Assembly: GCF_002804065.1 (NCBI RefSeq)
Contig: NZ_CP024955.1
Location: 1,054,001-1,118,000 of the forward strand
Source: Kyrpidia spormannii
Lineage (GTDB): Bacteria; Bacillota; Bacilli; Kyrpidiales; Kyrpidiaceae
DNA length: 64,000 nucleotides
Reading direction: 5' to 3'
Shown: piece after piece, positions 35,400-58,045 of the stretch
Layout: each line of letters opens with the position of its first letter
Position numbering within the stretch: position 1 is the stretch's first letter
The notes under the pieces: generated by a model
What the model was told of the DNA's origin: nothing
The model's database searches: none
The model's input: only the letters and a program-made list of their open reading frames with translations
Program-made: the position numbers and the translations under genes

Positions 35400-36584
35400 G
35401 TGGAATGTATCATTGTGATTGAACGTACTTCCATTGTTACAAACTATACTTCCGTTACGGGGATGACGAACGTGAAGCTTCCGATGTTCTATACGTTTCC
35501 AGTAATAAGGGGTATTCAGGCTGGTAGAGAGTACTATGTTTCTATGTGTCCTTTACGCTTGGTTCCGCGCTTACTTGTGTTTGACGAAGAAGATCTCGAA
35601 CCGAACTTAAGGTCTCAACGTGTTCTTAACAAAGCCCGGATCCCTGTTCTGGCAAAGTATATGATCGATAATCCGAATGGATATGTCTTCTCGGCAATTA
35701 CTGTTTCGATTGATGGTGATGTCGAGTTTCACCCTATATCGGACGATTTAAATTACTACAACTTAGGTACGATAAGAGTTCCTATGGACGCAAAATTCAT
35801 AGTTAATGACGGACAGCACCGTCGAGCAGGGATCGAAGCGGCTCTGAAAGAACGTCCAGAATTAGGGAATGAAACGATAGCAATAGTCTTCTTTATTGAT
35901 CGTGGTTTAAAAAGGTGCCAGCAGATGTTTGCAGATTTGAATCGGCACGCAGTTCGGCCAACAGAGTCTTTAAACATTTTATATGACCATAGGGATCCAA
36001 TTGCCGAAATTGCAAGAAGCCTGACTCACCAAGTTCCTGTTTTTGAGGGTTTGACGGAGCTTGAGAGATCGACCATATCTAATCGTTCAACCAAATTGTT
36101 CACTTTGAGTGGCATCTACCGTGCGACTTGTGAATTGTTAACTGCGATTGGTGATGAAGAAGACTTAGAAGACCAGCATAAACTTGCATATAACTACTGG
36201 AATACCATAAGTCGTTACCTTCGCGAGTGGAACCTGGCTAAAGAAGGACGAGTTCGGGCTTCGGAACTTAGAAGGGACTACATAAATGTTCATACCATCG
36301 CACTGGTTGCCTTAGGACGGTTAGGCGCCTCACTAGTGCAACAACATCCGGATGAATGGACAAATATGATTTGTAGAATAGGTTCAGTTGACTGGCACAG
36401 GTCAAACCCAAGGTGGGAGGGGCGTGTCACTATCGGCGGTCGAATTTCATACTCTCGCAACAATCTTGTCTTGTTGACGAATGAGTTGAAACACATCATG
36501 GGTGTTGAGTTAAGTAACGAAGAACTTGAAGCTGAAGCTGCACATAAGAAAGGTCTGTCAATAGCAGGGAGGATATCTCATTGA
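35400..36584 (+). CDS. dndB: DNA phosphorothioation protein DndB (DGQHR domain)
   Basis: 394 residues if GTG 35400 is used; ATG 35463 (codon 22) is an equally likely start because family members begin near F-P-V-I-R-G-I-Q-A-G-R. The defining D-G-Q-H-R motif is at 137-141, in N-D-G-Q-H-R-R-A-G-I. DndB is not required for sulfur incorporation but tunes modification level and can act as a repressor of dnd genes. It is the first gene of the operon, and its stop overlaps the dndC start by four bases. Confidence 0.95.
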   Translation: MECIIVIERTSIVTNYTSVTGMTNVKLPMFYTFPVIRGIQAGREYYVSMCPLRLVPRLLVFDEEDLEPNLRSQRVLNKARIPVLAKYMIDNPNGYVFSAITVSIDGDVEFHPISDDLNYYNLGTIRVPMDAKFIVNDGQHRRAGIEAALKERPELGNETIAIVFFIDRGLKRCQQMFADLNRHAVRPTESLNILYDHRDPIAEIARSLTHQVPVFEGLTELERSTISNRSTKLFTLSGIYRATCELLTAIGDEEDLEDQHKLAYNYWNTISRYLREWNLAKEGRVRASELRRDYINVHTIALVALGRLGASLVQQHPDEWTNMICRIGSVDWHRSNPRWEGRVTIGGRISYSRNNLVLLTNELKHIMGVELSNEELEAEAAHKKGLSIAGRISH

Positions 36585-38053
36585 AATTGCAGATACGTAT
36601 TACCAGACAAATCCTCGATGAGTTGAAGAAGAGTATACAAGAGCTGTATCTATCAGATTACATACCTTGGGTCGTGGGTTATAGCGGTGGTAAGGATTCT
36701 ACAGCAACCCTACAACTGGTATGGACAGCTATAGCAGATCTTTCCCCCGAAAAAAGGAGCCAAAAAGAAATACATGTAATTAGCACGGACACACTAGTGG
36801 AACAACCGATCGTAGCAGCTTGGGTGAACCGTTCGTTAACGTTGATGAAAGTTGCAGCCACGCAGCAGAAGATGCCTATAAAGGTACATCGACTTACACC
36901 AGATGTACACAATTCATACTGGGTAAATCTTATTGGGCGTGGGTATCCCGTCCCACGACAGGGTTTCCGATGGTGCACTAGCCGGCTAAAGATCGATCCT
37001 TCTAACAAATTCATTAGGAATATGGTCAAGAAGTATGGTGAAACCATCCTTGTATTGGGTACTCGAAAATCCGAGAGTTCGGCTCGAGCGGCTACAATGG
37101 CGAAATATGAAACGAAACGTACCAGGCAAGTGCTGAGTCCAAATGGTAGCCTCCAAAATTCATGGGTGTTCTCTCCGATTGAAGACTGGTCAAGTGATGA
37201 TGTGTGGCTGTATTTAATGCAAGTTAATAACCCTTGGGGTATTTCAAACAAGGACTTGATGAGTATGTATCGTGAGGCTAGCAGTGACAATGAGTGTCCA
37301 TTGGTTGTTGATAATACAACACCAAGTTGCGGTAATAGTCGGTTTGGCTGCTGGGTTTGTACCCTTGTAAGCCAGGATAAATCTATGGAGGCAATGATAC
37401 AAAATGATGAAGAAAAAATATGGATGACCCCAATGCTTGAGTTTAGAAATGAAATTGGGAAGCTCGATGAAAACGGTAAGATTGATGACCATTCATTTAG
37501 GGATTTCCGTAGGATGGACGGTAGCATAAAGCTTTACGAAAGTCGCGAGGGGACGATTCCTGGACCTTACACAAAGGAATATCGGGAATATTTGCTGCGA
37601 CGCCTTCTCGAGGTCGAAAAGCAAGTCCAGGCTCTAATGCCGAGCTACATAGGCGAATTCCAGTTAGTTACGTTAGACGAGTTAAGGGAAATACGCAGGA
37701 TTTGGGTTGAGGAAAAATTCGAGTTTGATGATGCTGTACCCCGAATTTATTCAGAAGTCACGGGCCGGGTGTGGCCAGAGAATACCATCCTAAGTAACTT
37801 TGGTCAGGAAGAATGGTCCATTTTAACAGAAATCACTGAAGGGGACAGTATTGAACGCGAAATGTGTTCATCCCTTCTCATGCTTACTGAGAAACACACA
37901 CTTCTCAATCGAAAAAAGAACATTATAGATGACATCGAACATTTTATACGTAAATGCTATTACGCTGACGTAGAAGATGCATTAGAGTACAAGAAGCAAC
38001 AAACAAACTTGCGAAATGGATCTTCCGAGCACATTGCTCGGAGATTGAAGTAG
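36581..38053 (+). CDS. dndC: DNA phosphorothioation protein DndC (PAPS-reductase-like)
   Basis: 490 residues from TTG 36581. AGGGAGGA lies six bases upstream, and TTGA joins the dndB stop. The ATP-pyrophosphatase PP-loop is S-G-G-K-D-S at 35-40. Cysteines 132, 239, 250, 257 and 260 (W-C-T-S-R, N-E-C-P, P-S-C-G, G-C-W-V-C) include the ligands expected for a 4Fe-4S cluster. DndC has ATP pyrophosphatase activity and, with DndA, DndD and DndE, swaps a non-bridging backbone oxygen for sulfur. Confidence 0.97.
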   Translation: MKLQIRITRQILDELKKSIQELYLSDYIPWVVGYSGGKDSTATLQLVWTAIADLSPEKRSQKEIHVISTDTLVEQPIVAAWVNRSLTLMKVAATQQKMPIKVHRLTPDVHNSYWVNLIGRGYPVPRQGFRWCTSRLKIDPSNKFIRNMVKKYGETILVLGTRKSESSARAATMAKYETKRTRQVLSPNGSLQNSWVFSPIEDWSSDDVWLYLMQVNNPWGISNKDLMSMYREASSDNECPLVVDNTTPSCGNSRFGCWVCTLVSQDKSMEAMIQNDEEKIWMTPMLEFRNEIGKLDENGKIDDHSFRDFRRMDGSIKLYESREGTIPGPYTKEYREYLLRRLLEVEKQVQALMPSYIGEFQLVTLDELREIRRIWVEEKFEFDDAVPRIYSEVTGRVWPENTILSNFGQEEWSILTEITEGDSIEREMCSSLLMLTEKHTLLNRKKNIIDDIEHFIRKCYYADVEDALEYKKQQTNLRNGSSEHIARRLK

Positions 38054-40072
38054 GTGAGTGAAATGGTAATTAAATCAATTACACTTAATAATTTTGGGGT
38101 GTTTCTTGGGAAACAGACTATTGAGCTTTATAACGGACGTGGCGATGGTAAACCTGTCACTTTGATTGGAGGCCTTAATGGCTGTGGAAAGACGACCATT
38201 CTTGATGCTATTTTCTTGAACCTTTATGGCAAGCGATCGCCTCGCTTACCTCGGGGAGAGAGTTATTCAGATTACCTGCGAAGTCTCATTAGTGTTGGGA
38301 TTGATGGGAAACAGGAAGAGTCATGGGTAGAATTAGTCATGGAAGTGCCTGATGGTAACGATTTCACAGCTTTAAGAGTCAGAAGGTCTTGGAAGGAAAG
38401 ACAGGTTAGAGTAACGGATCGCCTGTCAGTGTGGCAAGATGGTCATTTAAATGCATACTTCGCTGAAGGCTGGGACGCATTTATAGAAGAACAGATTCCT
38501 GTGGCCATTTCAGAGCTGTTCTTTTTTGATGGCGAAAGGATTTCTGCACTTGCGGAGTCGGAAGAAACTATAGAGTCTTTGCAAACTGCAATTCGATCAC
38601 TGTTAGGTATAGATACAGTCGATCGTTTAATCAAAGAACTAGGAACACTTGTTCGTAGTAAGGAGAGGGCAATCAAAAACAGTGATCTTTATGAAGAATT
38701 CAAGGAAGCACATTCTAGATTGGATGAGCTGGATAATGAGATTGCTCGATTGAACCAGGAGCAAGTAAGTCTATACACGCGAATAGAGCAAGCGGAAAAA
38801 CAACTAGAGGATTTGGAGGCCCAATACTACAAGTTGGGCGGAAACCTCTATGAAGATAGGGAAAGGTATGTCACTAATCATCAAGATTTAACAAAGAGAT
38901 CGCTTGATCTCCGTGCTGAGATGGTTGCTTTGGCATCGGGAGCACTTCCGTTGACTCTGGTCCGGGAACGTGTAGAGCGGCTTTTATTAGTCTCCCGCCA
39001 TGAAGAGTTGATCCAGAAAGCGAGATACATACTTCCTGAAATTGAGAATCTACAAAGTATGCTGATTAAACAACTCTCAACAAAGGATGAAGGGATACAA
39101 GAACTTGTCAATCGTACGATTGAAGCACGGTACCGGGAATTGTCACAGGTCGCTAATGAGGATATCAATTATAATTTGAGTCCAGCTCAGGTACAGCAGG
39201 TACTAGAGGTAATTTCGCATCAAACGTCTCGTTCGCGTGAGCTAATTATCGAGTTGGATAAGGTAGAAACTGAGTTAAAGCAAATTGAGACTAACCTCAC
39301 ATTGGATATAGATCCTAAACAGTTTGAGTTCTTAATTGAGCAGAAGACAAAAAAGAAAATTAAAATAGAAGAATATCGGAAGGAATACGATAATATTCGA
39401 TCGCAGAAAGCTCGGCTCGAAGCTGAGAAACGAGCGGTTGAAACTCGAATTTTACATATTGGAAATCGGATAGCCGAATCTGATGATGCAGAGAGAATCA
39501 TAAAGTACTCGATTAAGGCGCAAGAGAAGATGAGGGTGTTCAGGAATCGTCTAATACAGCAAAAAGTTGGCAAGCTAGCTCAAGCAATCACTAAGCAGTA
39601 CAGTTTACTCACACACAAAAAGTCGCTAGCTGAGGAAGTTAATGTAGATCCTGTTACATTTAGGATATCTTTAAAAGACGAACGTTCAAATATTATACAG
39701 AAATCTAAGCTGTCCGCTGGCGAGCGGCAAATGTTAGCTATAGCGATTCTGTGGGGATTAGGTAAAGTTTCTGGGAAGCAACTCCCTGTGATCATAGACA
39801 CGCCTATGGGACGCCTGGATTCGCTTCATCGGTTTAACTTCGTTAGCAAGTATCTTCCAAATGCAAGTCACCAAGTAATAGTATTATCAACTGATAAGGA
39901 AATTGAAGGGGATTACTTAAGAGCCATTGAACCTTTTATTAATCGTCGGTACACACTCGTATATGACGAATTGGATAAGTCCACCCGTATAGTGGAAGGA
40001 TATTTCAATACAAACTCAAATGAAAGGGAATCCTTGTGGCATGATCGTGAAACAGATACGATTGTCCAATAG
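38054..40072 (+). CDS. dndD: DNA phosphorothioation ATPase DndD (SMC-like)
   Basis: 672 residues from GTG 38054, which directly follows the dndC stop. ATG 38063, with AGGTG before it, would give the more typical M-V-I-K-S-I-T-L-N-N-F-G start. Walker A is G-L-N-G-C-G-K-T (40-47), coiled-coil arms span about 200-520, the ABC signature L-S-A-G-E-R-Q is at 553-559, and Walker B P-V-I-I-D is at 578-582. DndD hydrolyses ATP and may open or nick DNA for sulfur insertion. It overlaps dndE by 32 bases. Confidence 0.96.
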   Translation: MSEMVIKSITLNNFGVFLGKQTIELYNGRGDGKPVTLIGGLNGCGKTTILDAIFLNLYGKRSPRLPRGESYSDYLRSLISVGIDGKQEESWVELVMEVPDGNDFTALRVRRSWKERQVRVTDRLSVWQDGHLNAYFAEGWDAFIEEQIPVAISELFFFDGERISALAESEETIESLQTAIRSLLGIDTVDRLIKELGTLVRSKERAIKNSDLYEEFKEAHSRLDELDNEIARLNQEQVSLYTRIEQAEKQLEDLEAQYYKLGGNLYEDRERYVTNHQDLTKRSLDLRAEMVALASGALPLTLVRERVERLLLVSRHEELIQKARYILPEIENLQSMLIKQLSTKDEGIQELVNRTIEARYRELSQVANEDINYNLSPAQVQQVLEVISHQTSRSRELIIELDKVETELKQIETNLTLDIDPKQFEFLIEQKTKKKIKIEEYRKEYDNIRSQKARLEAEKRAVETRILHIGNRIAESDDAERIIKYSIKAQEKMRVFRNRLIQQKVGKLAQAITKQYSLLTHKKSLAEEVNVDPVTFRISLKDERSNIIQKSKLSAGERQMLAIAILWGLGKVSGKQLPVIIDTPMGRLDSLHRFNFVSKYLPNASHQVIVLSTDKEIEGDYLRAIEPFINRRYTLVYDELDKSTRIVEGYFNTNSNERESLWHDRETDTIVQ

Positions 40073-40439
40073 AGCCAAGGAGCAACTGATTCGTCTAAAA
40101 TCTAAAACAGGGATACAGCAATGGAATGTCTTGTGCCGCTGGGCTCTCTGTTTATCGCTTAAAGAGCCAACACCACCGCCTGATGTTGAGCATCCAGCTG
40201 ATAGCAACGTTGAAATGACCTGGCAGGTGTTTGGTGGGGAATATCAGGATATTTATGAAGCGCTCATTATCGAACGTTGCATTAGTGATGGCCTTGGAAC
40301 GAGTCCAGATATATTGGCTAAGCAGTTCAGACTTCATTTGCATAGGGGAATAAGTTATCTGGCAGCGACGAATTTCATTAAGAACATCGGAGATCTGCTG
40401 AAGTTGTCCAGTTCTGACGAAACACAGTCAGAGGAGTGA
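40041..40439 (+). CDS. dndE: DNA phosphorothioation protein DndE
   Basis: 132 residues from ATG 40041; an in-frame GTG/ATG further up (40020) would add seven residues. The pattern K-Q-I-R-L-S-N-R-A-K-E-Q-L, L-K-S-K-T-G-I and N-V-L-C-R-W-A-L-C-L-S-L is characteristic of DndE, which forms a small oligomer that binds nicked DNA. The C-terminus (H-L-H-R-G-I-S-Y-L) also fits. It lies inside dndD's last codons, showing tight coupling. Confidence 0.94.
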   Translation: MIVKQIRLSNRAKEQLIRLKSKTGIQQWNVLCRWALCLSLKEPTPPPDVEHPADSNVEMTWQVFGGEYQDIYEALIIERCISDGLGTSPDILAKQFRLHLHRGISYLAATNFIKNIGDLLKLSSSDETQSEE

Positions 40440-40446: not shown

Positions 40447-41574
40447 ATGCCTGTGTACTTGGACTTCAATGCAACGACCCCTGTTCATCCTGAGGTTTTA
40501 GAACTAATGATCCACGTTTATCGATCACAATTCGGAAACGCCAGTAGCCGAACTCATATTTATGGACAGGAGGCAAAGAGAATTGTAGATGAAAGTCGAG
40601 CCAAGATCGCAAACCTGTTAGGCATTAGCCCAACTGAAGTCGTCTTTACAAGTGGAGCAACAGAAAGTAACAATTTAGCGATTTTGGGGCTCGAGGATTA
40701 TGGTCGGAAACAAAGGAAACTGCACATCATATCAACTAATATTGAGCATAATTCAATTTTAGAACCATTAAAAGTACTTTCTCGTAGAGGATTTGATATC
40801 GAATTGTGCCCTGTAGATTCGGCAGGGCTTATTGATGCGGAAGATTTACTTCGAAGGGTAAGGACTGACACGCTGTTGGTAACTGTTATGCATGCCAACA
40901 ATGAAACGGGGGTACTACAGCCGGTTGACGTAATCGGTACGCGGCTTAAGGAAATGGGGGTTTTATTCCATGTTGATGCATCTCAGACGTTTGGAAAACT
41001 ATCAAAAGAGATATTATCACTTGATTACGATTTAATGAGCATTACTGCACATAAGGTCTATGGGCCTCAAGGAATCGGAGCACTGATATTACGCCACCGC
41101 AACTACGTACGACCACCGCTAACACCTCTTCTCCATGGAGGAGGACAAGAAAACGGACTACGACCGGGCACTCTCCCAGTAGCGTTGATTGCGGGGTTCG
41201 GTAAGGCAGCGGAACTTGCACAGCTCCATGGGGAAAAGTGGTTAAGACAAGAGGCTCGTATTAAGCAGGATGTTTTAGACCAACTGAGAGTTATTAAGCA
41301 CGTCATCAACGGAGACCAAACTCACTGCCTTCCTAATTGCGTAAATGTAAGTTTTCCAGGAATAGATTCAGAAGCTCTAATGTTGGCGACTAGGACTGAA
41401 ATTGCTATATCTAACGGGTCGGCCTGTACTTCATCAAAATATCGCCCGAGTCACGTCTTGGAAGCAATGGGGGCGCTTGCCGAGTCTGCAGTTCGTTTAT
41501 CTTGGGGACCACAGATAGACTCTGTTGACTTGGAGCCTATCATAACATTTGTACGTCAAATGACGCAACTTTAG
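40447..41574 (+). CDS. dndA: Cysteine desulfurase DndA
   Basis: 375 residues, NifS/IscS fold. The PLP lysine is Lys203 in T-A-H-K-V-Y-G-P-Q-G and the persulfide cysteine is Cys327 in N-G-S-A-C-T-S-S. It supplies sulfur for DndC. In many dnd loci dndA is divergent or replaced by a housekeeping iscS. Here it is the last gene of the same operon, seven bases after dndE, so the modification set is self-contained. Confidence 0.94.
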   Translation: MPVYLDFNATTPVHPEVLELMIHVYRSQFGNASSRTHIYGQEAKRIVDESRAKIANLLGISPTEVVFTSGATESNNLAILGLEDYGRKQRKLHIISTNIEHNSILEPLKVLSRRGFDIELCPVDSAGLIDAEDLLRRVRTDTLLVTVMHANNETGVLQPVDVIGTRLKEMGVLFHVDASQTFGKLSKEILSLDYDLMSITAHKVYGPQGIGALILRHRNYVRPPLTPLLHGGGQENGLRPGTLPVALIAGFGKAAELAQLHGEKWLRQEARIKQDVLDQLRVIKHVINGDQTHCLPNCVNVSFPGIDSEALMLATRTEIAISNGSACTSSKYRPSHVLEAMGALAESAVRLSWGPQIDSVDLEPIITFVRQMTQL

Positions 41575-41655: not shown

Positions 41656-42164
41656 GCGTGCCTAGCAAAGCTAGGCACAACTTGCCGGTGCAAGTCCGGC
41701 CGAGGTAGGGGCCAGACCGCCTCGTAGCTAGCAGGCATCTGGTGGTGAGAGCCTAAGGGTGAAGCCCTGCGAAAAGCCCGGATGGGTGAAGCAAAACTGC
41801 AGGCCGTAACATGAAGTGAATCCTGCCGCATCGTTAATTTAGACCCGAAAGGGACAAGAGGAAGCCGAGCCGCGTGTGCACCGGCGAAGGCCATGGAACG
41901 TGTGAAGAATCTGGAAGGGCAGCACGGAAAAATCCTCCGGTGTAGAGGAAGCGGCATGTAGTGACAGTTGTGCCTGGAACTAGGGAGGCCCTACCCCGCA
42001 CGGCGAATGCCGTAAACGGTGACCCTATAAGCCCTACAAGGTGAAATGGTGAACCGCGGGGAGGGAGTCGGAGAGGGTGGTAGTACCAAGGAACGCAGGA
42101 CAACACAACCTGCAGGAGGAAAGCACCCTTACTTTGTTCGCGGGTTCAATGGAGGTAAGAGCGA

Positions 42165-43487
42165 GTGAATGCAGAAAACACTGCTAACTACACCAAAGAC
42201 AAAGTTCGAGAACTCCAGAGGACCCTCTACCTTGCTGCGAAGGCGAATCCCAAACGTAGGTTTCATGCCCTGTACGACAAGGTATACAGAATCGATGTGC
42301 TGTGGGAAGCATGGAGACGAGTGAAGGCCAACCGGGGCAGTGCCGGGGTGGACGGCGTCACCATCCGTCATATCGTCCAGGGGTACGGCGAGATTCGGTT
42401 TGTGAGGGAGATCCAGGAGCTCCTCATGAAAGGTAAATACCGGCCGATGCCGGTGCGAAGGAAGGAGATACCCAAGGCGGACGGCAAGACCCGACCGCTT
42501 GGGATTCCGACCATTCGCGACCGGGTCGCACAGATGGCGGCAAAAATCGTGCTTGAACCCATCTTCGAAGCGGACTTCAAGGACTGCTCGTTTGGGTTCC
42601 GACCCAAGCGTAGCGCCAAAGGGGCCATCGATCGGATCCATCGGGCGGTGAACTGGGGAAAAGTGTACTGGGTGGTAGACGTGGATATCACGGGCTACTT
42701 CAACAACATCCCACACGACAAACTGCTCAAGCTCGTGGAGCAGAGGATCAGTGACAGGCGGGTGCTGAAGCTGATTCGGAAGTGGCTAAAAGCCGGATAC
42801 ATGGAAGAAGGCCTGTTCCATGAAACGGAGATCGGCAGCCCGCAGGGCGGGGTGATCTCGCCGCTGCTGGCGAACATCTACCTGAACTACCTGGACACGA
42901 TATGGGAGAAGCGCTTTACCCACTTGGGCACCCTGGTGCGGTACGCCGATGACCTGGTCATTCTGTGCGAGAAGAAGGCCCACGCACTGGAATCGGTGAA
43001 GGTGCTGAAAGCCGTGTTCAACAGGCTTGAGCTAAGCATAAACAAGGACAAATCTAAGCTGGTGGATCTGTGGATTGGCAAGCCAGGGTTCGATTTCCTC
43101 GGGTTCCATCACCAACGCATACCGGTACTCCGTAAGGGAGGCAAGGTAGCGCACGTTCTGCGCAGCTACCCGTCCAAGAAGGCCATGAAGAAGATGCGGG
43201 CCAAGGTACGGGAGGAGTTAGCGCCACGGAATCGGCTGTATTGGAGTCCAGCACAGGTGGTGGCAAACCTGAATCCCATCATCCAAGGATGGAGGAACTA
43301 TTATGGGAGTGTCGACCCAGGCATGAGCCGCAGGTTTCTGAGCAAGGTGGACTGGCACATCAATCGGCGACTGATTCTGTACTGGCGCAAGAAGCACAAA
43401 CGCAACCGGATGACGCCGACGGAAATCGTTCAGTTCTTCCGGTCCATTGGGCTGAAAACGGTAAGCGGGTATGGGCAGGGGCTATAA
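42165..43487 (+). CDS. ltrA: Group II intron reverse transcriptase/maturase
   Basis: 440 residues from GTG 42165. Reverse transcriptase blocks are visible: N-R-G-S-A-G-V-D-G-V-T, R-P-L-G-I-P-T-I-R-D-R, G-F-R-P-K-R-S-A, D-I-T-G-Y-F, P-Q-G-G-V-I-S-P-L-L-A-N, and the catalytic Y-A-D-D at 260-263. A maturase (domain X) region follows, with W-R-N-Y-Y-G. No HNH endonuclease domain is present at the C-terminus, so second-strand cleavage at new sites must be provided another way, as in endonuclease-lacking lineages. Confidence 0.96.
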   Translation: MNAENTANYTKDKVRELQRTLYLAAKANPKRRFHALYDKVYRIDVLWEAWRRVKANRGSAGVDGVTIRHIVQGYGEIRFVREIQELLMKGKYRPMPVRRKEIPKADGKTRPLGIPTIRDRVAQMAAKIVLEPIFEADFKDCSFGFRPKRSAKGAIDRIHRAVNWGKVYWVVDVDITGYFNNIPHDKLLKLVEQRISDRRVLKLIRKWLKAGYMEEGLFHETEIGSPQGGVISPLLANIYLNYLDTIWEKRFTHLGTLVRYADDLVILCEKKAHALESVKVLKAVFNRLELSINKDKSKLVDLWIGKPGFDFLGFHHQRIPVLRKGGKVAHVLRSYPSKKAMKKMRAKVREELAPRNRLYWSPAQVVANLNPIIQGWRNYYGSVDPGMSRRFLSKVDWHINRRLILYWRKKHKRNRMTPTEIVQFFRSIGLKTVSGYGQGL

Positions 43488-43506
43488 CAGCGCAAGGTGA
43501 AGAACA

Positions 43507-43548
<42 letters not shown>

Positions 43549-43582
43549 AGGAGGGGCTGGGTCCCCCAGCCCTTCACTCTAC

Positions 43583-44278: not shown

Positions 44279-44324
44279 CTTGTCCCGGTCGTCGTAGATT
44301 TTCGTGACGGCCTTTTTCTGCAAT

Positions 44325-46889: not shown

Positions 46890-46924
46890 TTTTGGGCACG
46901 CCAAATAGACCCCACGCATAATTT

Positions 46925-47638: not shown

Positions 47639-47663
47639 CCCCCGGTCCATAAGAGACCGGGGG
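47639..47663 (-). terminator. Terminator of the secreted-protein gene
   Basis: A perfect 9-bp stem, CCCCCGGTC (47639-47647) with GACCGGGGG (47655-47663). On the minus strand it is followed by TCTTTCTT. Confidence 0.85.
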
Positions 47664-47670
47664 ATTGATT

Positions 47671-48909: not shown

Positions 48910-48982
48910 GACATCTCCTCCCTATGTTTGTTCTCCGTAAGTTTATCACAAATTAAAAAATCCTACATGAATTATCTGGGAT

Positions 48983-49327
48983 TTAAATCGTGATGGTCAC
49001 GATTTCGCTATCACTGTAGTTTTCGTTGGTGTCCCAGGTACGAATAAAGATTTGGTAGGATCCAGGTGGAAGATCCAGTGTATATTGATTTTGGCTGATG
49101 ATGCCGACATTTAGTTTTTGGTTTGGGACAACGGTCCCATAATAAATCTCGTATCCCCTCGTGTCAGGGGATGGAGATGGGTTCCAGGTGAGGAGTTTTC
49201 GGTCCTCCCCAATGCTGATTAATGTCTGGCCCGTATATGCGCCCATCAGATTTCACCACAGTTTTATGAGTCGGAAAATAACTGTATCTCCAGGTTGGAC
49301 AGGCTCTTGAAATGTTACGGTATACAT
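48983..49327 (-). pseudogene. Fibronectin type III-like domain gene with an in-frame stop
   Basis: The frame opens at ATG 49327 (M-Y-T-V-T-F-Q-E-P-V-Q-P-G-D), meets TGA at 49253-49255 after 24 codons, and can restart at ATG 49246. The 87-residue second part has an FnIII-like strand pattern (L-L-T-W-N-P-S, G-Y-E-I-Y-Y-G, Y-T-L-D-L-P-P-G-S-Y-Q-I-F-I-R). It lies 73 bases upstream of the secreted-protein gene, on the same strand. It is either a small stand-alone FnIII protein or the tail of a larger gene cut by IS1634. Confidence 0.5.
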
Positions 49328-49339
49328 GTTGGTTTCCTG

Positions 49340-50060
49340 ATAGTCCTGTCCGCATACCAACACACAGACAAAAATGTGGCCTCGTACCCGCTTCTCGTTC
49401 CAGTGATAGACAGGCCCCACGTCGAGGAAGTTCTTGATCTGTCAAAACGCCCGCTCAATCCCCATCAGCGTTTTGTAGGACAACACCACGTCCCCGGCCG
49501 GGAAGGTCGTGTTCGTCCGAATCAGGAACTTCCCGTCCCGCAGAGCCTCCTTGGCAAGGGCCCCTTCGCCCCGTGCGTACGTCAGTACGCCGTCCTGGTA
49601 GGCACGTGGAAAAACGCCTTGACCCTTTTTTCGTCAACAGATCCGCCACCTTGAGCATGACGCCTTTATTCGCCGGCTTGCGCCCGCGCCTTGTCTGTAT
49701 CAACCGCTCCGCCAGGGCCAGAAGTCCCGCTTCCGCCTCTGCGAGCTCAAAATCTGATGCAATGATCACAGGTGATGATGATTGGGTACCTCTGAGGATG
49801 CTGTTGACCGCAGTATCCTGATAGACAGAGATACCCTTTTCCTTTCCCGGATTAATAGACATTGTATCCGTCAACTTCTGGACCGGTAATCCCGTCAGCA
49901 TTCGGCCATTATGGAATAGCGGTAACACCTGGGTAAAGGATTTCTGAGCGTGACCAAGGCCAGTGAGAGGGTGAGGAGCATCGTTGCCAGCCTGGGTATT
50001 CCAATGCCGTCCAAAACGATCTGGGTTTCGGAATCTGGGCGTGTGCGGAAGATGGACTAG
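49340..50060 (-). pseudogene. IS1634-family transposase remnant
   Basis: Fragments in several frames read like an IS1634 transposase. They include V-Y-H-W-N-E-K-R-V-R-G-H near 49398-49424, Y-K-T-L-M-G-I-E-R-A-F then a stop near 49440, and R-R-G-R-K-P-A-N-K-G-V-M further upstream. Frameshifts and stops make it non-functional. Element ends were not identified. Confidence 0.65.
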
Positions 50061-50129
50061 CCCCGGACAATAGACACATGGCCAGCGATATACGATTTCC
50101 GGCCCCGCAGGCATGCGGGGCTAAAGCGC

Positions 50130-50342
50130 GTGTGGTACAAACTGGAGCTTGCGAACCCGCGTCAAATCAAGGGTATTGTCAAACTTGAGTTGAACGCGTT
50201 TTATACCGACGAAGCGGGGCCAGCTTCGTTCATTATGACTAGAGTAACTGTTCAACACAAACCTATTTTCATCCTTCAGATGGTGCCGTTCCTGCGGCAT
50301 GGGGTCATTAGACCTTTGCATGCTCTGTTCATGATTTATTAA
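50130..50342 (+). CDS. Doubtful short hypothetical ORF
   Basis: 70 residues from GTG 50130 (W-Y-K-L-E-L-A-N-P-R-Q-I-K-G-I-V-K-L-E-L). The composition is protein-like but there is no ribosome binding site or known family, and it lies between IS remnants. It may be a fragment of a disrupted gene. Confidence 0.2.
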   Translation: MWYKLELANPRQIKGIVKLELNAFYTDEAGPASFIMTRVTVQHKPIFILQMVPFLRHGVIRPLHALFMIY

Positions 50343-50490
50343 ATTCCTTTCGAAGCAAAGTGTAATATAATATGGATGATACTTCTAACACAAGTCTTAG
50401 AGTGACCGAATACGTTTCCTTATAGTCTACCATCAAGTATAATGGACCCAAGAAACTGGACAATAAGAAGGGAGATTTTAAGGTAGGTCC

Positions 50491-50823
50491 ATGACGCGAA
50501 AAAAGTATGATACTGACTTCAAAACCAAAGTTGTCCTGGAAATTCTCAAAGAGGAAAAGACGCTCTCGCAATTGGCATCCGAATATGGCGTTCACGTCAA
50601 TCAACTCCGCCAATGGCGGGATATCGCCTTGGAAAACTGGCCACGAGCGTTTGAACCCGAGAATAAACAGCTGGCCAAAATTCGTGCAGAATATGAAGAC
50701 AAGATCCAAGAGTTGTATGCGGAGGTCGGTCGCCTGAGCACACAATTGTCTTGGTTGGAAAAAAAATCTCGCCTCGCTCAGTCGAGAGGACAAGTTGGCT
50801 CTCATCGACTTCCAAGAACGTGA
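50491..50823 (+). CDS. IS3-family transposase OrfA
   Basis: 110 residues with an N-terminal helix-turn-helix (K-Y-D-T-D-F-K-T-K-V-V-L-E-I-L, L-A-S-E-Y-G-V-H-V-N-Q-L-R-Q-W) and a leucine-zipper-like C-terminus. An A8 run at 50759-50766 is placed where IS3 elements shift frame. The last ~18 residues read out of the family frame. Confidence 0.9.
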   Translation: MTRKKYDTDFKTKVVLEILKEEKTLSQLASEYGVHVNQLRQWRDIALENWPRAFEPENKQLAKIRAEYEDKIQELYAEVGRLSTQLSWLEKKSRLAQSRGQVGSHRLPRT

Positions 50824-51604
50824 ACTCCCCCTCGCCGTTCAGGCCAAGCTTCTGGGCTTGAACCGGTCCAGCCTGTACTACAGGCCGGTCGGACCGTCCG
50901 AGGAGGAGGTGAGGCTCAAACACCGGATTGACCAAATCTACACGGAGCATCCTTTTTATGGATCCCGACGCATCACGGCCATTTTACGCAGCGAACATTG
51001 GACCGTCAACCGCAAGGCCGTCCAGCGTCATATGCGGGAGATGGGGATTGCCGGCATCACTCCGGGTCCCAATTTGAGCCGGCGCGCCCAGGCACACCGG
51101 GTGTATCCCTACCTGTTACGCGGCTTGAAGATCGAGCGTCCGAATCAGGTCTGGGGCATCGACATCACGTATATCCGCATGGCGCATGGCTGGATGTATC
51201 TGGTGGCGATCCTGGACTGGTACTCCCGTTACGTGGTCAGCTATGAGCTGGATCAAACCCTGCATATGGATTTTGTTCTGAAGGCCTTGGATCAGGCCCT
51301 CGGGCAGTGGACGCCGGAGATCATGAATAGCGACCAGGGAAGTCACTTTACCAGCCCGAAGTACACGGACGTACTGGTGAATCATGGGATTCAGATCAGC
51401 ATGGACGGTCGGGGTCGAGCCCTGGACAACATCTTCACCGAGCGCCTGTGGCGGAGTCTGAAGCAGGAAGAGGTGTATCTTCACGACTACCAAACGCCGA
51501 AACAGGCTCGGGAAGGGATCGCCAGATACCTGGAGTTCTACAACCACAGGCGTCCGCACCAGTCCCTGGGATATATGACGCCGGCCTCCGTGTTCGGCCT
51601 CTAG
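50795..51604 (+). CDS. IS3-family transposase OrfB (DDE integrase)
   Basis: 269 residues from TTG 50795. Catalytic triad: D in G-I-D-I-T-Y-I, D in N-S-D-Q-G-S-H, and E in F-T-E-R-L-W-R-S-L-K. It ends with the typical N-H-R-R-P-H-Q-S-L-G-Y. It lies in the +1 frame relative to OrfA, whereas canonical IS3 fusion needs a -1 shift, so production of OrfAB is doubtful unless another mechanism or a sequence difference applies. Confidence 0.92.
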   Translation: MALIDFQERELPLAVQAKLLGLNRSSLYYRPVGPSEEEVRLKHRIDQIYTEHPFYGSRRITAILRSEHWTVNRKAVQRHMREMGIAGITPGPNLSRRAQAHRVYPYLLRGLKIERPNQVWGIDITYIRMAHGWMYLVAILDWYSRYVVSYELDQTLHMDFVLKALDQALGQWTPEIMNSDQGSHFTSPKYTDVLVNHGIQISMDGRGRALDNIFTERLWRSLKQEEVYLHDYQTPKQAREGIARYLEFYNHRRPHQSLGYMTPASVFGL

Positions 51605-51785
51605 GGGGGCCCCTCCACAAAAGGGGGGGATCCTCCTGCCAAGAACGAGCACCAACGACGAAGGGGGGCTCCTCCAATCGAGGGATGATCCAGAAATGGA
51701 AAACAGGTCCGGCGTCCATATCCAAATTCAGGAATCCCAACACACTTTAAAAAGGGCCAAAAAAATGTCTTGACAATGGGGTCCA

Positions 51786-51975
51786 CCTCAAAGTTCCCTG
51801 CATTTACCGAGATGACAGTTTTCCGGGTCTAGGACGACATTCAGCAGTCCGTTGTCAACAGGTTGTTCAATCTTGGAGCATGGTAATGTATTTAATAAGA
51901 GCTATGAAATCTGTGAAAAGATGTTGCCGTAGGTTGCAGAGCAGGTGGGTGTAGAAACTAGCGAGGGGGTATGGT
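51786..51975 (+). other. Leader of the putative restriction operon
   Basis: 190 bases between the IS3 end and the ATG at 51976, AT-rich and without a gene. It should hold the operon's own promoter. GAGGGGG at 51961-51967 is the ribosome binding site. No clear -35/-10 pair was assigned. Confidence 0.4.
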
Positions 51976-53919
51976 ATGGATAAGCAGAGACTTAGGGATC
52001 TGGAGTATCGCACTTATTACGCCAGTGGTCAGCACGACCTACTGAATGAGTTTTATCTTCCCTGTCTTAGGTTAGCAAGTAACTACGATAGAGCAGTCGG
52101 GTATTTTAATTCATCCATTCTAATACCGATCAAACCTGGATTGGAGGCTATTGTTAAGAGGAGTGGTAAGATACGCATTATGGCAGGTGCGCAATTGACA
52201 GAAGAAGATATTTCGGAAATACGTAAAGGATATCATGAACGAGAAATTCTGAATGCTCACCTCGACAAGATTTATACTGAGCTACAAGAACGTGTCGAGC
52301 ATGATCCTGACATAGCTAATCTATGTTGGTTGATTAAGAATGACATTTTGGATATTCGAATTTCAGTTCCTAATGTTGCTTATTTGGAGGAGCGAATTGG
52401 AGAGCTAATAGCACCTGGTATATTCCACGATAAGATTGGAATCATTTCAGATGCATCGGGAGATTATGTAGTCTTTCTTGGTTCGAATAATGAGTCTATA
52501 AATGGTTGGGCCAGAAACATAGAGTCATTTGAGGTATACTGTAGCTGGGATACATCTGTTTCAGCGCGAGCGTTCGAACGTCACAAGTATTTTGAACGTC
52601 TGTGGGAAGGCACTCTACCTGGCGTTCGAACTTTCGAGTTCCCGGATGCATATAAAAACAAACTTATAGCGATCGCTCCACCTGAATTCCAATGGGCATC
52701 AAAAGGCAGCTCGCAGTCTTGGTTTACATTTGTAAATAATAAATGGCGTCATCAGGAAGAGGCAATTGCTAAATTCTTGTCTTCGCGTAACGGTATCTTG
52801 GAGATGGCAACGGGCACAGGGAAGACAAAGACTGCCATCGGAATCTTGAACCAATTACACAGTAAGCAAGAAATTGAAAAGGCTATTGTTACTGTTCGTG
52901 GTACTGATTTATTGGATCAATGGAGCAGTCAGTTGGTCCTAGAAACAAATCTTGCGGTCTATCGGCATTACGAGAGTTTCAGGGACATAGCGAGATTTAT
53001 AGCAAGCTCGGGCAACAGTGTATTAGTTATATCAACTGATTTCTTGATAGAAAATATCCACTATATTGCCGGTGGGATAAATCCAGAAACCACAATCATT
53101 ATTTGCGATGAAATTCACGGTTTTGGTTCGAGTAGCACCGTCAAAGCGCTTAAAGGTCGAATCCGTCCGTTTAAATATCGGCTCGGATTAAGTGCAACAC
53201 CCGAGAGAGAGTATGACGAAGAAGGCAATAAGTTCATTATGGAAGAAATTGGGCCGGTTATCTTTGAATTTAGACTCGAAGATGCAATCAAGCGTGGGAT
53301 ACTTTGTGAGTTTGATTATTTTCCCCTATTATACGAGTTAACCGATGAGGATCGCGACAGAATTCATAGGCTGATTGCGGCTCACAACGCTCGGAAAAAG
53401 TCGGGAGAACTTGTTTCGGATGAGGAGCTCTACAGGCAATTAGCTCAGGTTCGAAAAAATTCATTAGCTAAAATACCTATCTTCGAGCGATTTATTAGGT
53501 CGAGGCACCACATTTTGGATCGTTGTATCATTTTTGTTGAGACCCATGAATTTGGAACACGGGTACAAGATCTATTGATTCGATACAAACCGGAATATCA
53601 CACTTATTTTGCCGAAGACGATCGGATAAATCTTCAAAGGTTCGCGAGGGGAGAGATCGATTGTTTGCTAACAAGCCAAAGGATTTCTGAAGGAATCGAC
53701 ATTCAGTCTGTGGACAACATCGTGCTATTTACGGCTGACCGATCAAGACTAACGACCATTCAGCGCATTGGTAGAAGCCTCCGAATAAATCCGAATGCTC
53801 CTGACAAGCGAGCCGGAGTTGTGGACTTCATATGTACTGACCGCAAGGACGATAACACGGACTTCCGACGAATGCAGTGGCTAAGTGAATTGTCGAAAAT
53901 TAGGTGGGAGGGTCGCTGA
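51976..53919 (+). CDS. PLD-nuclease/DEAD-box helicase, probable Dnd-linked restriction enzyme
   Basis: 647 residues from ATG 51976. The N-terminal ~230 residues form a phospholipase-D-like domain: R-A-V-G-Y-F-N-S-S, then His151 and Lys153 in I-F-H-D-K-I-G-I and G-S-N-N-E-S at 169-174. A superfamily-2 helicase follows: Walker A M-A-T-G-T-G-K-T near 277-284, D-E-I-H at 378-381, and motif VI Q-R-I-G-R-S-L-R at 596-603. This layout matches the restriction enzyme family found next to dnd genes, and it is the first gene of a four-gene operon 10 kb from dndBCDEA. A stand-alone defence nuclease is the alternative. Confidence 0.85.
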   Translation: MDKQRLRDLEYRTYYASGQHDLLNEFYLPCLRLASNYDRAVGYFNSSILIPIKPGLEAIVKRSGKIRIMAGAQLTEEDISEIRKGYHEREILNAHLDKIYTELQERVEHDPDIANLCWLIKNDILDIRISVPNVAYLEERIGELIAPGIFHDKIGIISDASGDYVVFLGSNNESINGWARNIESFEVYCSWDTSVSARAFERHKYFERLWEGTLPGVRTFEFPDAYKNKLIAIAPPEFQWASKGSSQSWFTFVNNKWRHQEEAIAKFLSSRNGILEMATGTGKTKTAIGILNQLHSKQEIEKAIVTVRGTDLLDQWSSQLVLETNLAVYRHYESFRDIARFIASSGNSVLVISTDFLIENIHYIAGGINPETTIIICDEIHGFGSSSTVKALKGRIRPFKYRLGLSATPEREYDEEGNKFIMEEIGPVIFEFRLEDAIKRGILCEFDYFPLLYELTDEDRDRIHRLIAAHNARKKSGELVSDEELYRQLAQVRKNSLAKIPIFERFIRSRHHILDRCIIFVETHEFGTRVQDLLIRYKPEYHTYFAEDDRINLQRFARGEIDCLLTSQRISEGIDIQSVDNIVLFTADRSRLTTIQRIGRSLRINPNAPDKRAGVVDFICTDRKDDNTDFRRMQWLSELSKIRWEGR

Positions 53920-54122
53920 TGAGTTTGGCATTTGATCTTCGTGCTGTTGTTGAACAGGTGTTAAGCGGCGCAGGACAATCTGAGGAATTTTGTTTTCGGT
54001 TATACAAGCTGTTGGAAAACTATATTGTAAATAATTGTACCGATGCTGATATCTTAGATGTTATAGAGAGTATTGCGACATGGGAAGACGAGGTGTCCAG
54101 AAATGCAAATTCGACTACATGA
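53919..54122 (+). CDS. Small protein of the putative restriction operon
   Basis: 67 residues from ATG 53919, overlapping the helicase stop (TGATG), with GTGGGAGG upstream. It is acidic and mostly helical in pattern (F-D-L-R-A-V-V-E-Q-V-L, E-F-C-F-R-L-Y-K-L-L-E-N-Y), with no recognised domain. It overlaps the next gene by 20 bases. The size and middle position suggest an adaptor between helicase and ATPase, as in three-component ABC systems; this is inference. Confidence 0.75.
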   Translation: MSLAFDLRAVVEQVLSGAGQSEEFCFRLYKLLENYIVNNCTDADILDVIESIATWEDEVSRNANSTT

Positions 54123-56037
54123 ATGGAGGTACACTAATATCCGAGGTATCGGATCGCTGGAAGTCAATTTGGAGAGACAGCCTAACGAAGTTTACCCAAT
54201 TACCCTTCTGATGATGCCAAATGGTACAGGTAAGACTACGACCATGAGCTTGTTACGAGCTATCTTTTCTGGTGAAGCTGAGCAGTGGAGTCCTCAACAG
54301 GTACGTGACTTTAGCCCTGGACCGGAATTTCAAAATGGTGAGTTTCGAGTAGCGTGGTCTGTGGCAGATGAAAACAAGATAAAAAGATATGTGGTATCGC
54401 TAAAGTTAGACTATAGTAATGGCATTGCTCGGTACATGACTTCTACAACTGGAGAAAGTGGCGGGTTGAGAGACGGTTGGGATCCTCCAAATTTGTTGAA
54501 ACCATTGTTGACGAAAGAGTTCGTAAGAATGTTTATATTTGATGGTGAGGTTGCTTCAGACATTCTAGACAACAAAAAGAACGACGCAGAAGGGGCTATT
54601 TCGGATCTATACCATCTAAATAAGTTGGATGAATTTAAAACAGAGGTAGACAAGTTGGTTAGTAGGAAGCAGCAAGAGAAGGAATCGAAGGGAACCTCCC
54701 ATCACATTTCTAGACTACGAAACAATGTTGACAGTCTAAGAGGTACTTTGCAACAGTTACAAACGAAGGAATCTAAGTTAAGAGAAGAACTTGAACAAAT
54801 GGAAGTACGAGTAAACGAGTTGGAGGACTATATCCAAGAGTATCTCTCTAAAAATCAAGAGTTAAAAAAAGAGGAGGAGAGAATTAAGAATGAACGGGAT
54901 GCTCTGAGCTTAGCTTTATCAAACACTGTGCAACAAACGCTAGAAATTTTGAGACAACCTCATTTAGTTAGTGAACTGTTTTCAAAAAGATTGAATTTCC
55001 TCGCTTCAAGTATGAGGGAGCTTAGGCTACCAAAATCGACTTCTAAGCAGTTTTTTGCAGAACTCGCTGAACAAAAATACTGTGTGTGCGGAAGGCCTAT
55101 TGGAGAACAAGAGAAGAAGGTAATTCTGACCCAAGCCGAAGAGTATTTAGGAGAAGATGAATTCGGCGTTATGAATGCTATAAAATCCTCCATAAATGAC
55201 CTGACTAAGCAAGAAGCGTTACTTCCGGATCTTGTAAATCGTCTATCCGGTTTACTTGAGCGCCGTGAAGAATTAGATAGACAATGGGTTCAAAATCGTA
55301 CGTGGTTGGAGAAATCAGGTGACGACCAAATAAGGGAATATATTGTCGAACAGACGCATCTAGAGGACAGAATCAAAGATATAAATCACGATTTAGAATT
55401 ATTAACTACAAACGATCCATCGAAACAGCACGGGAATGATTTGAATTGGAAAAACAACATACCGATTTGCCGGGACGAGTTGGAGGAGGCACAGCGCCGC
55501 CTTAGAGTGGTGACCGACACAGCTCGATTAGTGTCTCAAGCGAATCTCCTTAAGGACTACGTCGACTCTATTAAGCGTTTCGCGCTTGAAAAACTTAAAG
55601 AGAAAGTGAAGAATCGAACAAACAATAAGATTGATCAAATAATTAAAAACGATTCTCTCAGAATAAAGAGCATAAATCGATATCTAATGCTGGAAAATAA
55701 GTCCGGAGCAAGTGTCGGGCAAACACTTTCAATCGCTTATGCATTCCTGGCATCTCTTTTCGAAGAGTCCTCATATGAGTTCCCCTTTGTCGTGGATTCA
55801 CCAGCGAACTCGTTAGATCTTGAAGTTCGAAGACATGTTGCCCCTATACTTCCTCAAATATTTAAGCAGGTAGTTGTATTTCTTATATCAAGTGAACGAG
55901 AGGGCTTTGTAGAGAGCTTTTATGAAATGGAAGGGGGCGTACAGTTCCTTACCATATATCGTGGCAATAACGGAGAAGTGTTCAACTACGAGGGACGGGA
56001 GATATTCTCCAAATTTCAAACAACTGTTGAGGGGTGA
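54103..56037 (+). CDS. SMC/DndD-like AAA ATPase of the putative restriction operon
   Basis: 644 residues from ATG 54103, with GAGGTG upstream. Walker A M-P-N-G-T-G-K-T-T is at 38-46, long coiled coils cover about 185-270 and 380-480, and a C-x-C-G-x-P pair (Cys327, Cys329) sits at the arm tip like half a zinc hook. The degenerate signature S-G-A-S-V-G-Q is at 534-540 and Walker B F-V-V-D-S-P at 562-567. It resembles DndD/RecN-type ATPases but is clearly a different protein from DndD in this window. It probably senses or remodels DNA for the nuclease-helicase. Confidence 0.85.
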   Translation: MQIRLHEWRYTNIRGIGSLEVNLERQPNEVYPITLLMMPNGTGKTTTMSLLRAIFSGEAEQWSPQQVRDFSPGPEFQNGEFRVAWSVADENKIKRYVVSLKLDYSNGIARYMTSTTGESGGLRDGWDPPNLLKPLLTKEFVRMFIFDGEVASDILDNKKNDAEGAISDLYHLNKLDEFKTEVDKLVSRKQQEKESKGTSHHISRLRNNVDSLRGTLQQLQTKESKLREELEQMEVRVNELEDYIQEYLSKNQELKKEEERIKNERDALSLALSNTVQQTLEILRQPHLVSELFSKRLNFLASSMRELRLPKSTSKQFFAELAEQKYCVCGRPIGEQEKKVILTQAEEYLGEDEFGVMNAIKSSINDLTKQEALLPDLVNRLSGLLERREELDRQWVQNRTWLEKSGDDQIREYIVEQTHLEDRIKDINHDLELLTTNDPSKQHGNDLNWKNNIPICRDELEEAQRRLRVVTDTARLVSQANLLKDYVDSIKRFALEKLKEKVKNRTNNKIDQIIKNDSLRIKSINRYLMLENKSGASVGQTLSIAYAFLASLFEESSYEFPFVVDSPANSLDLEVRRHVAPILPQIFKQVVVFLISSEREGFVESFYEMEGGVQFLTIYRGNNGEVFNYEGREIFSKFQTTVEG

Positions 56038-56044
56038 AGATATT

Positions 56045-56530
56045 ATGACAGAGGGAACAACGGAAATTCCGCAAATTCGAATAGGTAGATTTAAGGAACC
56101 TAAAGGAGCAGAAGCATATTTTTCTCGACTTAAGTTAATTAGTAGCACACCGAAATTTGACAAGTATTATATGTGTCTTCTTCTCGGACTTCAGGAGCGC
56201 ATTCTCGGTGATGAAAGCGATGTTGAAAGTGGTTATTTTGTTGACTCATATCCGGGTCCGTATGCAACGCAAGCGGACATAATTGCAGCGTTGCTCATCG
56301 AGGCGGAGTTGGACAGGCAAGGACTTATGTTATCCGATGTTCAAGGCGTTGAAAGGTTAATGAGAAGAATTCTTAGTCCTTATTCTTCAACAAGGCTTAG
56401 TGTGGACGGTATAGATTTATTGAACCGTTATGCGGCAGGGGGGTTTAGTCTTCTTAGACAGGATATACCACCTACTAATGATGTGGCTACATTTTTTAAG
56501 CTGTACTGCAAGATGCTCATTGAAAGATGA
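56045..56530 (+). CDS. Hypothetical protein, last gene of the putative restriction operon
   Basis: 161 residues from ATG 56045, seven bases after the ATPase stop, with GAGGGGTGA upstream. No recognised domain; the pattern is mainly helical (Y-Y-M-C-L-L-L-G-L-Q-E-R, A-A-L-L-I-E-A-E-L-D-R-Q-G). It ends 50 bases before an IS256 remnant, so the operon may once have been longer. Its length would suit the middle component of an ABC-three-component system. Confidence 0.75.
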   Translation: MTEGTTEIPQIRIGRFKEPKGAEAYFSRLKLISSTPKFDKYYMCLLLGLQERILGDESDVESGYFVDSYPGPYATQADIIAALLIEAELDRQGLMLSDVQGVERLMRRILSPYSSTRLSVDGIDLLNRYAAGGFSLLRQDIPPTNDVATFFKLYCKMLIER

Positions 56531-56580
56531 ACCAAACTCGTACGTAGGCTGATTTGTTTCAGGAGGATGACGGAGTAGAG

Positions 56581-58021
56581 GTTGTCCCGGTCGTCGTGGA
56601 TTTTCGTGACGGCCTTTTTCTTCAATTTACGCGGTGATGGATTTGTTTTCCTGCTGTGGTTGCGGATGTACACATTTGTGTAATGCATCGAGGAGCAGAG
56701 GGATTTGGCGAAATCCCTTGACGGTCCTGAACTTTTTCTCCGCCTCCAAAAATCCTGCAGCCGCCCAGCGCAGCACCTGTTCCCCATTCTGCCAGCGCTT
56801 GACGTTCCGACTCACCATCCGCACCTTCTCATTGGCTGATTCGATCGCATTCGTCGAGCGCAGAGTTCCCCGAAGCAGTTCCGGAACTCCCAGCCGGATC
56901 ACGGTCACGGTCTCTTCCATCCCCTCGCGCAAACTGGCTGCTGCCCCTGGATACGCCTTCTCAAGTTGTGCCGCCAAGCGCCGCAGGGCCGCCAGTGCCT
57001 CTTTTTCGGTCTCCTGGCGCCAGGCCTCCCGCAATTGCCTCTTGACCCAATCTCGCTGTTTCTCCGGCAGATGCTCCAGGACATTGCGCTCCTTGTGCAC
57101 CTGACACCGCTGAACCAATGCCGTCTCTCCAAACACGTCCCGTACTGCGGCACGCAAAGCCTTACTCCGTCGATGACGACCAGGATCCCATCATCGGTTT
57201 TCAGTCCCCGGTCCACAAGATCGGTCAGCAGTCCTTTGCACACTGTCGCATTCTCTGTCGCTCCCTCCCAGACGCCCAGGATCTGCTTCTGTCCCCCTAC
57301 GTCAATCCCTAATGCCGCCACTACGGTGTGGTCCGCCATGACGATCCCGTCAATAACTAGCGCCACGTACCGGCGGTCGTCCAGGCGCCGCTGCATGAGT
57401 TTTTCGAGCAGCTTCTTCGTGGCGGCAATGAAACGCCGGCTAACGGCGCTCTTGCTCGTGCCGGAGGTTTCCACCTCGTTTCCGACCGGCTCAAGACCAA
57501 ACGCATAGTTTCGGGTCGACAAGCCATGAATCATCCGCTCCAACGCGGCCTGGGTCAGCAGCGTTGGATCCTGAAAAGCCTGGTAGGTCTCCAGCGGGAT
57601 TTCATGACCGTCGACGCTGCGTACCCGAACTTTTTCCACAGCCACCTTCCGGCCCCAAGCATCACGGAGCCCTTTTCCTTTCCGTGTCGCACAGCCTTGC
57701 GCTTTGGATTGTGTTTCCCTTTGGGGCCCACCAAAGCTTCGACTTCCTCTCGCATCATGAGTTGAATCACTCGAAGCCCGGTTTGAACCGCCAAGGCCAT
57801 GAGTCCCTCTTTCGCGCTCTCCATCACGTCCAGTAGCGACAGTTGGAGGGTGAACTGCTGAGAAGGATCTAGTGTCGAAAACAGGCTCTGGTCATTTCTC
57901 ACAATTTGATGTACCCTTGATTTCATAGGTGGCGTTCTCCTTTCTTGTTGTGCCCAATCCCGTTATACCAAACGGGTTCAGGAGACCGCCACCTTCAAAT
58001 TTCCACGAAACCTGGGACAAC
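56581..58021 (-). mobile_element. IS256-family element, copy C (full length, decayed)
   Basis: Ends GTTGTCCCGGTCGTCGTGGA (56581) and, inverted, GTTGTCCCAGGTTTCGTGGA (from 58021) are imperfect inverted repeats. No 8-9-bp target duplication is visible. It lies between the restriction operon and the bacteriocin cluster. Confidence 0.88.
56627..57926 (-). pseudogene. IS256-family transposase, copy C, two frameshifts
   Basis: Nearly complete mutator-type transposase from ATG 57926. One-base deletions relative to copies A and B occur near 57650 (the G-S-V-M-L-G-G-R segment) and near 57165 (the V-I-D-G-S-K segment). These split it into three frames. The catalytic region and S-T-N-A-I-E-S are otherwise intact. 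Confidence 0.9.
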
Positions 58022-58045
58022 GCCAAGCGCCCAGCAGCCCCCCCA

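Follow-up and report, generated by a model that had tools for sequence, protein, structure and literature searches.

The window that we analysed, a 64,000-nucleotide stretch of the Kyrpidia spormannii genome, contains a tightly packed set of four genes at positions 51976–56530, all on the plus strand, all with open frames, and located as given in the initial annotation. The first of them, pbeA (51976..53919), codes for a 647-aa protein in which an HKD (PLD-type) nuclease is fused to an SF2 helicase. It is followed by pbeB (53919..54122, 67 aa, assigned by position and size), by pbeC (54103..56037, 644 aa), encoding an ABC/SMC-like ATPase of the CxC clade with a zinc-hook-like CVCGRPIG motif, and by pbeD (56045..56530), whose 161-aa product is a putative DndE-like partner of PbeC in DNA recognition, with a predicted double ribbon-helix-helix. 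The stop codon of pbeA and the start codon of pbeB share one base (TGATG, 53917–53921), pbeB and pbeC overlap by 20 nt, and a gap of 7 nt separates pbeC from pbeD. GC content of the operon is ~41–43%, against ~57–63% across most of the window's left half, and a scan upstream of pbeA returned no consensus promoter or terminator. PbeA and PbeC each give a single place in the host's own genome.

Residues 6–627 of PbeA match the PADLOC PbeA model with an E-value of 3.1e-206, which bears out the earlier suggestion that the first gene encodes a PLD-helicase of the dnd-linked type. ResIII and Helicase_C are found above Pfam cut-offs, while the match to PLDc_2 is weak and below its cut-off. TIGR04095 (dnd_restrict_1) aligns with residues 258–629 at 160.5 bits, below the curated cut-off of 600. 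Since this model covers the helicase part of PbeA itself, the idea that the operon joins dnd-linked restriction to an ATPase operon does not hold up. The nuclease motif comprises H151 and K153 (HxK), followed by N172 and E183, and the motor carries the Walker A lysine K283, DEIH and QRIGR. In an alignment of 79 PbeA rows, three are gapped at the nuclease motif and 76 could be scored: H151 is present in 75 (the remaining one being an unreadable X), K153 and N172 in all 76, and E183 in 75, with D in one. D159, which we read as the third HKD residue, is retained in 71/76; the PbeAs of four members of the window's own clade (L050, L129, L131, and L132) have G or L at this position and retain the His, Lys, and Asn. 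Walker A K283 is present in all 78 ungapped rows. The AlphaFold model of PbeA (pLDDT 87.9, built from 39 sequences) has the enzyme SauUSI (7clg) as its top Foldseek match, with an E-value of 6.8e-23 over 642 alignment columns and a low TM-score (0.34) that we put down to domain placement. VIA-align ranked XPB first (Z 29.3), with helicases filling the list. A viral or prophage origin of the operon found no support, as peptide patterns of PbeA gave no match to viral contigs, such a query finding close relatives only.

PbeC matches AAA_23 (E 2.2e-9), PADLOC PbeC (E 1.7e-28), and DndD (E 6e-21), and the C-x-C tip previously noticed in this SMC-like ATPase is present as CVCG. We did not take the PADLOC match alone as proof, because the PbeC models, many of them DndD-like, give the DndD of the window a far higher score (up to 564.5 bits) than its true PbeC (97.8 bits), so that a DndD can be annotated as PbeC by mistake. 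When 28 PbeC and 20 DndD rows were placed on a tree, the two groups parted with 100/100 support, long branches being present; as the PbeC rows were picked by their position after PbeA, the tree tests position against sequence. We conclude that, at the level of sequence, PbeC is a CxC-type ABC ATPase and not a second DndD. A search by sequence for a solved-structure relative of PbeC returned none, and the DndD model gave one faint match (19.5 bits) in the own genome beyond DndD and PbeC. The closest relative of the window's PbeC is the PbeC of a Priestia plasmid (39% identity), whereas for its DndD the nearest rows come from other lineages, namely Clostridia, which shows reassortment of the modules.

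Searches of PADLOC, Pfam, and NCBIfam produced no significant model match for PbeB or PbeD, and for this reason their identity rests on position, size, and weak profile similarity, with the addition of a modest fold match in the case of PbeD. Relatives at the equivalent position are annotated as 'CxC ATPase DNA modification system associated small protein', and the family alignment is weak (15–30%). By hhalign, PbeD matches dnd_assoc_4-type proteins adjoining PbeC relatives (92.5%, E 4.9e-7), all 17 of which match TIGR04062; with the same method, a relation of PbeD to DndE was not detected by sequence (0.6%). The AlphaFold model of PbeD (pLDDT 83.8, from 7 sequences) had no significant match in Foldseek (4lrv, E 7.5). 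Re-ranking with VIA-align placed DndE structures first (5wtu, Z 6.1, rmsd 3.2, 92/98 residues) and second (4lrv, Z 5.2), ahead of two F plasmid relaxosome entries (Z 4.3 and 3.5) and the rest at Z 2.0. This comparison of modelled folds is suggestive and of modest strength, and fits the published claim of kinship with DndE, a protein whose structure is treated in PMC9239217.

These results bear on a second proposal of the initial annotation, that the gene order fits an ABC-three-component system, and on the rival reading of a new system of this type that is unrelated to known Pbe and uses a nuclease as effector. The operon does combine an effector, a small protein, and a coiled-coil ABC ATPase, and LmuB of Lamassu matches the third gene weakly (E 7.3e-10), but the PbeA and PbeC models score far better, the third gene falls with the DndD/CxC ATPases, and neither gene 2 nor gene 4 has a significant match to a middle-component or any other model of Pfam, NCBIfam, or PADLOC. 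The rival reading is largely refuted, and we regard it as exceedingly improbable; membership in ABC-3C or Lamassu was rejected from these profile searches together with the ATPase tree.

On the same strand as the pbe genes, the window carries a complete dndBCDEA phosphorothioation module (35400–41574), absent from the initial annotation. Four of its five genes pass the NCBIfam cut-offs: dndB (35400..36584; TIGR03233, 474.7 bits, cut-off 328), dndC, encoding a PAPS-reductase-like sulfurtransferase (36581..38053; TIGR03183, 628.9 bits, cut-off 290.4), dndD, encoding an ABC ATPase without the CxC hook (38054..40072; TIGR03185, 514.9 bits, cut-off 245.85), and dndE (40041..40439; TIGR03184, 124.8 bits, cut-off 71.85). 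The fifth, the cysteine desulfurase gene dndA (40447..41574), has its best match in TIGR03235 at 453.3 bits, just under the cut-off of 480, and in PADLOC scores 432.1 bits as SspA and 418.6 bits as DndA. DndC occurs in one of 21 genomes searched, which is the own genome, and two congeners are without it. Priestia queries gave no match to DptF or DptG in the own genome in a search run without a positive control; the same seeds recover DptFGH in locus L115, described below.

A 10.4-kb stretch containing mobile elements separates the dnd module from the pbe module. A group II intron (41682..43582, plus strand, RNA ends by Rfam RF02003 and RF00029) with a maturase ORF (42165–43487, plus strand, TIGR04416, 424 bits) lies between dndA and pbeA, and plus-strand IS3-type transposase ORFs (50491..51604, with rve and HTH_21 Pfam matches on 50795–51604) stand directly upstream of pbeA. 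Several repeats between the modules also occur in a mutator-type transposase copy (56630–57157, by Pfam) that lies downstream of pbeD, and within 43583–58024 such copies (64–98%) flank pbeABCD on both sides, so that recombination across the operon might occur. The interval also contains two minus-strand ORFs of 259 and 412 aa (45996–48909), which matched no Pfam or NCBIfam family. Further to the left, an RNase P RNA gene (33020–33437, by Rfam) is followed by a tyrosine integrase (33759–34793, by Pfam). The DNA match to one congener, G398 (93%), stops at ~33592, after the RNase P RNA gene and before the integrase, and the segment 58000–61500 was not found in this congener or in two other relatives in a search run without a positive control. 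Because the similarity ends at the former point and the latter segment was not recovered from these genomes, the dnd and pbe modules are probably carried on an acquired island, which would begin just past the RNase P RNA gene. A search for an attachment-site repeat of the rnpB end yielded only chance-like 14-mers.

The group II intron, the several mutator-type transposase pieces, and the IS3-type element between the modules could also mark a decaying remnant, in which insertions have split dnd from pbe and function has been lost. The scan upstream of pbeA and the two congeners without dndC point the same way. However, the reading frames of all nine genes are open, PbeA retains its catalytic motifs, and separate transcription units are found in other members of the clade too, for instance in convergent orientation in Rhizobium. 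We therefore consider decay improbable.

To place the operon among its relatives, we examined 87 loci (79 distinct loci, 7 plasmid loci, and the window), of which 79 have PbeA over 200 bits; gene order was counted in the 66 that have 3,200 or more downstream bases. Conservation of the four-gene order, earlier put forward as a check on the operon, was indeed found. An ATPase-like ORF is next to PbeA on the same strand in 52/66 loci, and 50/66 have the order A-B-C-D, with a 40–120 aa ORF before the ATPase and one of 105–260 aa after it, a count which is generous because the small ORFs were scored with no requirement for homology. The CxCG hook is seen in 35 of these 66 loci and dndC in 25, and its absence from a locus is not proof that the genome lacks it, as the flanks cover at most ~12 kb. 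In the clade of the window (the window itself, L050–L054, and L129–L133, picked by similarity), dndC is present in 11/11 loci, compared to 14 of the other 55. Among 398 genomes from the phylum, matches were mostly helicase-only or nuclease-only, full-length PbeA-like proteins being a small minority.

Plasmid pBMG4 of Priestia megaterium has a tandem array of dptHGF, dndBCDE, a gene for a desulfurase, and the pbe set of four, Halorubrum trapanicum (a strain grouped by Xiong et al. with a clade including Bacillus, PMC6459918) has dndCDEA-pbeABCD, and on two Rhizobium plasmids the dnd and pbe modules are convergent. A Rhizobium indigoferae plasmid (L134, 9348–14148) shows the order B-C-D-A, with a PAPS-reductase-like gene and one for a cysteine desulfurase alongside. 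In Firmicutes bacterium UBA5286 (L050, 12039–15619), pbeC is present in two pieces ~1.6 kb apart, perhaps split by an insertion. In Exiguobacterium sp. s124 (L115, 2085–13582), DptFGH is back to back with PbeA, which by ORF call has no nuclease part and is followed by a CxC ATPase, in a locus without dndC.

We conclude that the four-gene set is almost certainly PbeABCD, an already published antivirus system acting with DNA sulfur marks, and not a new one. The genes have been identified, their reading frames and the dnd genes are intact, and both gene order and catalytic motifs are conserved. We find it highly probable that the locus is an intact bacterial dndBCDEA-pbeABCD with a predicted phosphorothioation-dependent antiviral activity. 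The description of the operon as a phosphorothioate-sensing ABC system thus survives in its link to phosphorothioate (PT), through the complete dndBCDEA upstream, and not in its novelty. As an alternative, Pbe could pair here with a modification other than PT, given that 320/553 published pbeAC pairs have no neighbouring dndCD (against 233/553 that do, PMC6459918) and that similarity does not co-vary across the modules (see below). Set against the complete dnd module in the window and the presence of dndC throughout its clade, we see very little chance that this is the case.

Co-variation was measured with Mantel tests on pairwise identity, on small numbers of loci. Correlation in the window's clade was clear inside the dnd module (DndE-DndD 0.58, n=9; DndE-DndC 0.53, n=10; p≤0.0015) as well as inside the pbe module (PbeD-PbeC 0.68, n=9; PbeD-PbeA 0.58, n=10; p≤0.0015). 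Across modules, no co-variation was seen between PbeD and DndE (0.13, n=10, p 0.19), and values for the other pairs were -0.32 (PbeC-DndD, n=8) and 0.20 (PbeA-DndC, n=10, p 0.10). When the 14 complete rows were all used, PbeD-DndE gave -0.06, and PbeA-DndC 0.29 (p 0.017), the latter counting against full independence of the modules. Single comparisons illustrate the pattern: the window and L052 have DndEs that are 60% identical and PbeDs that are 22% identical, whereas with Priestia the figures are 31% for DndE and 42% for PbeD. Xiong et al. reported a rho of 0.107 for DndCD against PbeAC (PMC6459918), and our result, within its small numbers, extends this to the recognition subunits. On the assumption that the PT motif is set by DndE, a tuning of PbeD to this motif is unlikely; these sequence comparisons suggest that recognition by PbeCD may not follow the DndE motif.

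A SauUSI-like architecture provides the starting point for a possible mechanism. SauUSI, a type IV restriction enzyme, is dimeric and joins a PLD nuclease (active-site residues His-119 and Lys-121) to an SF2 motor and a target-recognition domain (PMC7913695), and both proteins pair an HxK-type PLD nuclease with an SF2 motor. PbeA is shorter (647 aa vs a SauUSI chain of 953 aa) and ends after the helicase with no target-recognition domain of its own, from which it would follow that it is a motor-nuclease borrowing recognition from PbeC-PbeD. Unlike SauUSI, it shares its operon with the genes for a separate ATPase and a DndE-like protein, both possible suppliers of that function. Cutting of marked DNA, as by enzymes of the SauUSI type, found no evidence in the case of PbeA. 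SauUSI is unnamed in the text of PMC10853773 and, in that of PMC6459918, is present only among the references.

We infer the following order of events, including the cleavage step. DndBCDEA would place sulfur marks on DNA, and the PbeC ATPase together with PbeD would scan it in the way proposed for DndD-DndE. Where the invader DNA is unmarked, the PbeC-PbeD complex may recruit or license PbeA, which, as a SauUSI-like nuclease motor, would translocate and then nick or cut; PbeB might be a regulator or a bridge between PbeA and PbeC. We add, as a rather unlikely possibility put forward tentatively, that recognition is outsourced by PbeA to a PbeC-PbeD scanner reading DNA sites of its own instead of the DndE motif, with PT serving as a licence and veto of a general kind and not as a methyl-like shield that works site by site.

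The cleavage step has to be weighed against work on the archaeal system of Haloterrigena jeotgali A29. There, each of the four pbe genes has a share in defence (only a partial one for pbeA), protection depends on intracellular PT marks, and PT-marked virus escapes (PMC6459918). In that system virus replication was suppressed, viral DNA cleavage was not seen, and slight resistance remained after deletion of pbeA (PMC6459918). The no-cleavage observation counts against a motor-nuclease step, and, along with the residual resistance, it favours a mode of action in which PbeABCD blocks replication of unmarked DNA without cutting and PbeA is a translocase or roadblock. On the other hand, essentially all relatives retain the H, K, and N of the HKD motif, the build of PbeA is that of the shredding nuclease SauUSI, and PMC10853773 argues that cleavage must take part in restriction. 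We favour a PbeC-PbeD scanner working with a PbeA nuclease motor, and hold a block without cutting to be possible, though on the unlikely side. A 2025 review calls the nature of the PbeABCD restriction event 'obscure', leaving open how the system stops viruses (PMC12707154), and later work on PbeABCD may exist.

The initial annotation had regarded the four genes as a possibly new architecture distinct from dndFGH/dptFGH. The distinction of genes 2–4 from that set is confirmed: NCBIfam and PADLOC searches gave no such matches, by which a DndFGH/DptFGH identity for the four genes was ruled out, and no sequence relation between the two sets was found. DndFGH/DptFGH acts alongside the same PT module in other bacteria, and the Priestia plasmid has both DptFGH and Pbe. 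Novelty is contradicted by the literature, as PbeABCD was described in 2019 and re-annotated in 2024. The latter study (PMC10853773) renamed the Pbe proteins as HKD-SF2 nuclease, small protein, CxC ABC ATPase, and DndE-like protein. Its CxC ABC ATPase-DndE systems have the CxC hook, the HKD-SF2 nuclease, the small protein, and probably the DndE-like partner in common with the window, and we found no feature separating the window locus from these systems as described.

The closest described counterpart by content is DndCDEA-PbeABCD of H. jeotgali A29, with a PLD-ResIII-Helicase_C protein, a 66-aa PbeB, an AAA_23 ATPase, and a 152-aa PbeD (Xiong et al. 2019, PMC6459918). It shares with the window the four-gene order, the domains of the first gene, the AAA_23 ATPase, and the neighbouring dnd genes, and the small proteins are of similar length (67/161 aa in the window vs 66/152 aa), this likeness being one of order, size, and domain description. 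In contrast to A29, the host of the window locus is bacterial, dndB is present, and 10.4 kb of DNA with mobile elements lies between the modules. The locus is a compact bacterial copy of the system, with both modules intact in a genome without a DptF/DptG match, and would for these reasons be suited to asking whether PbeA cuts DNA and which of the proteins senses sulfur.
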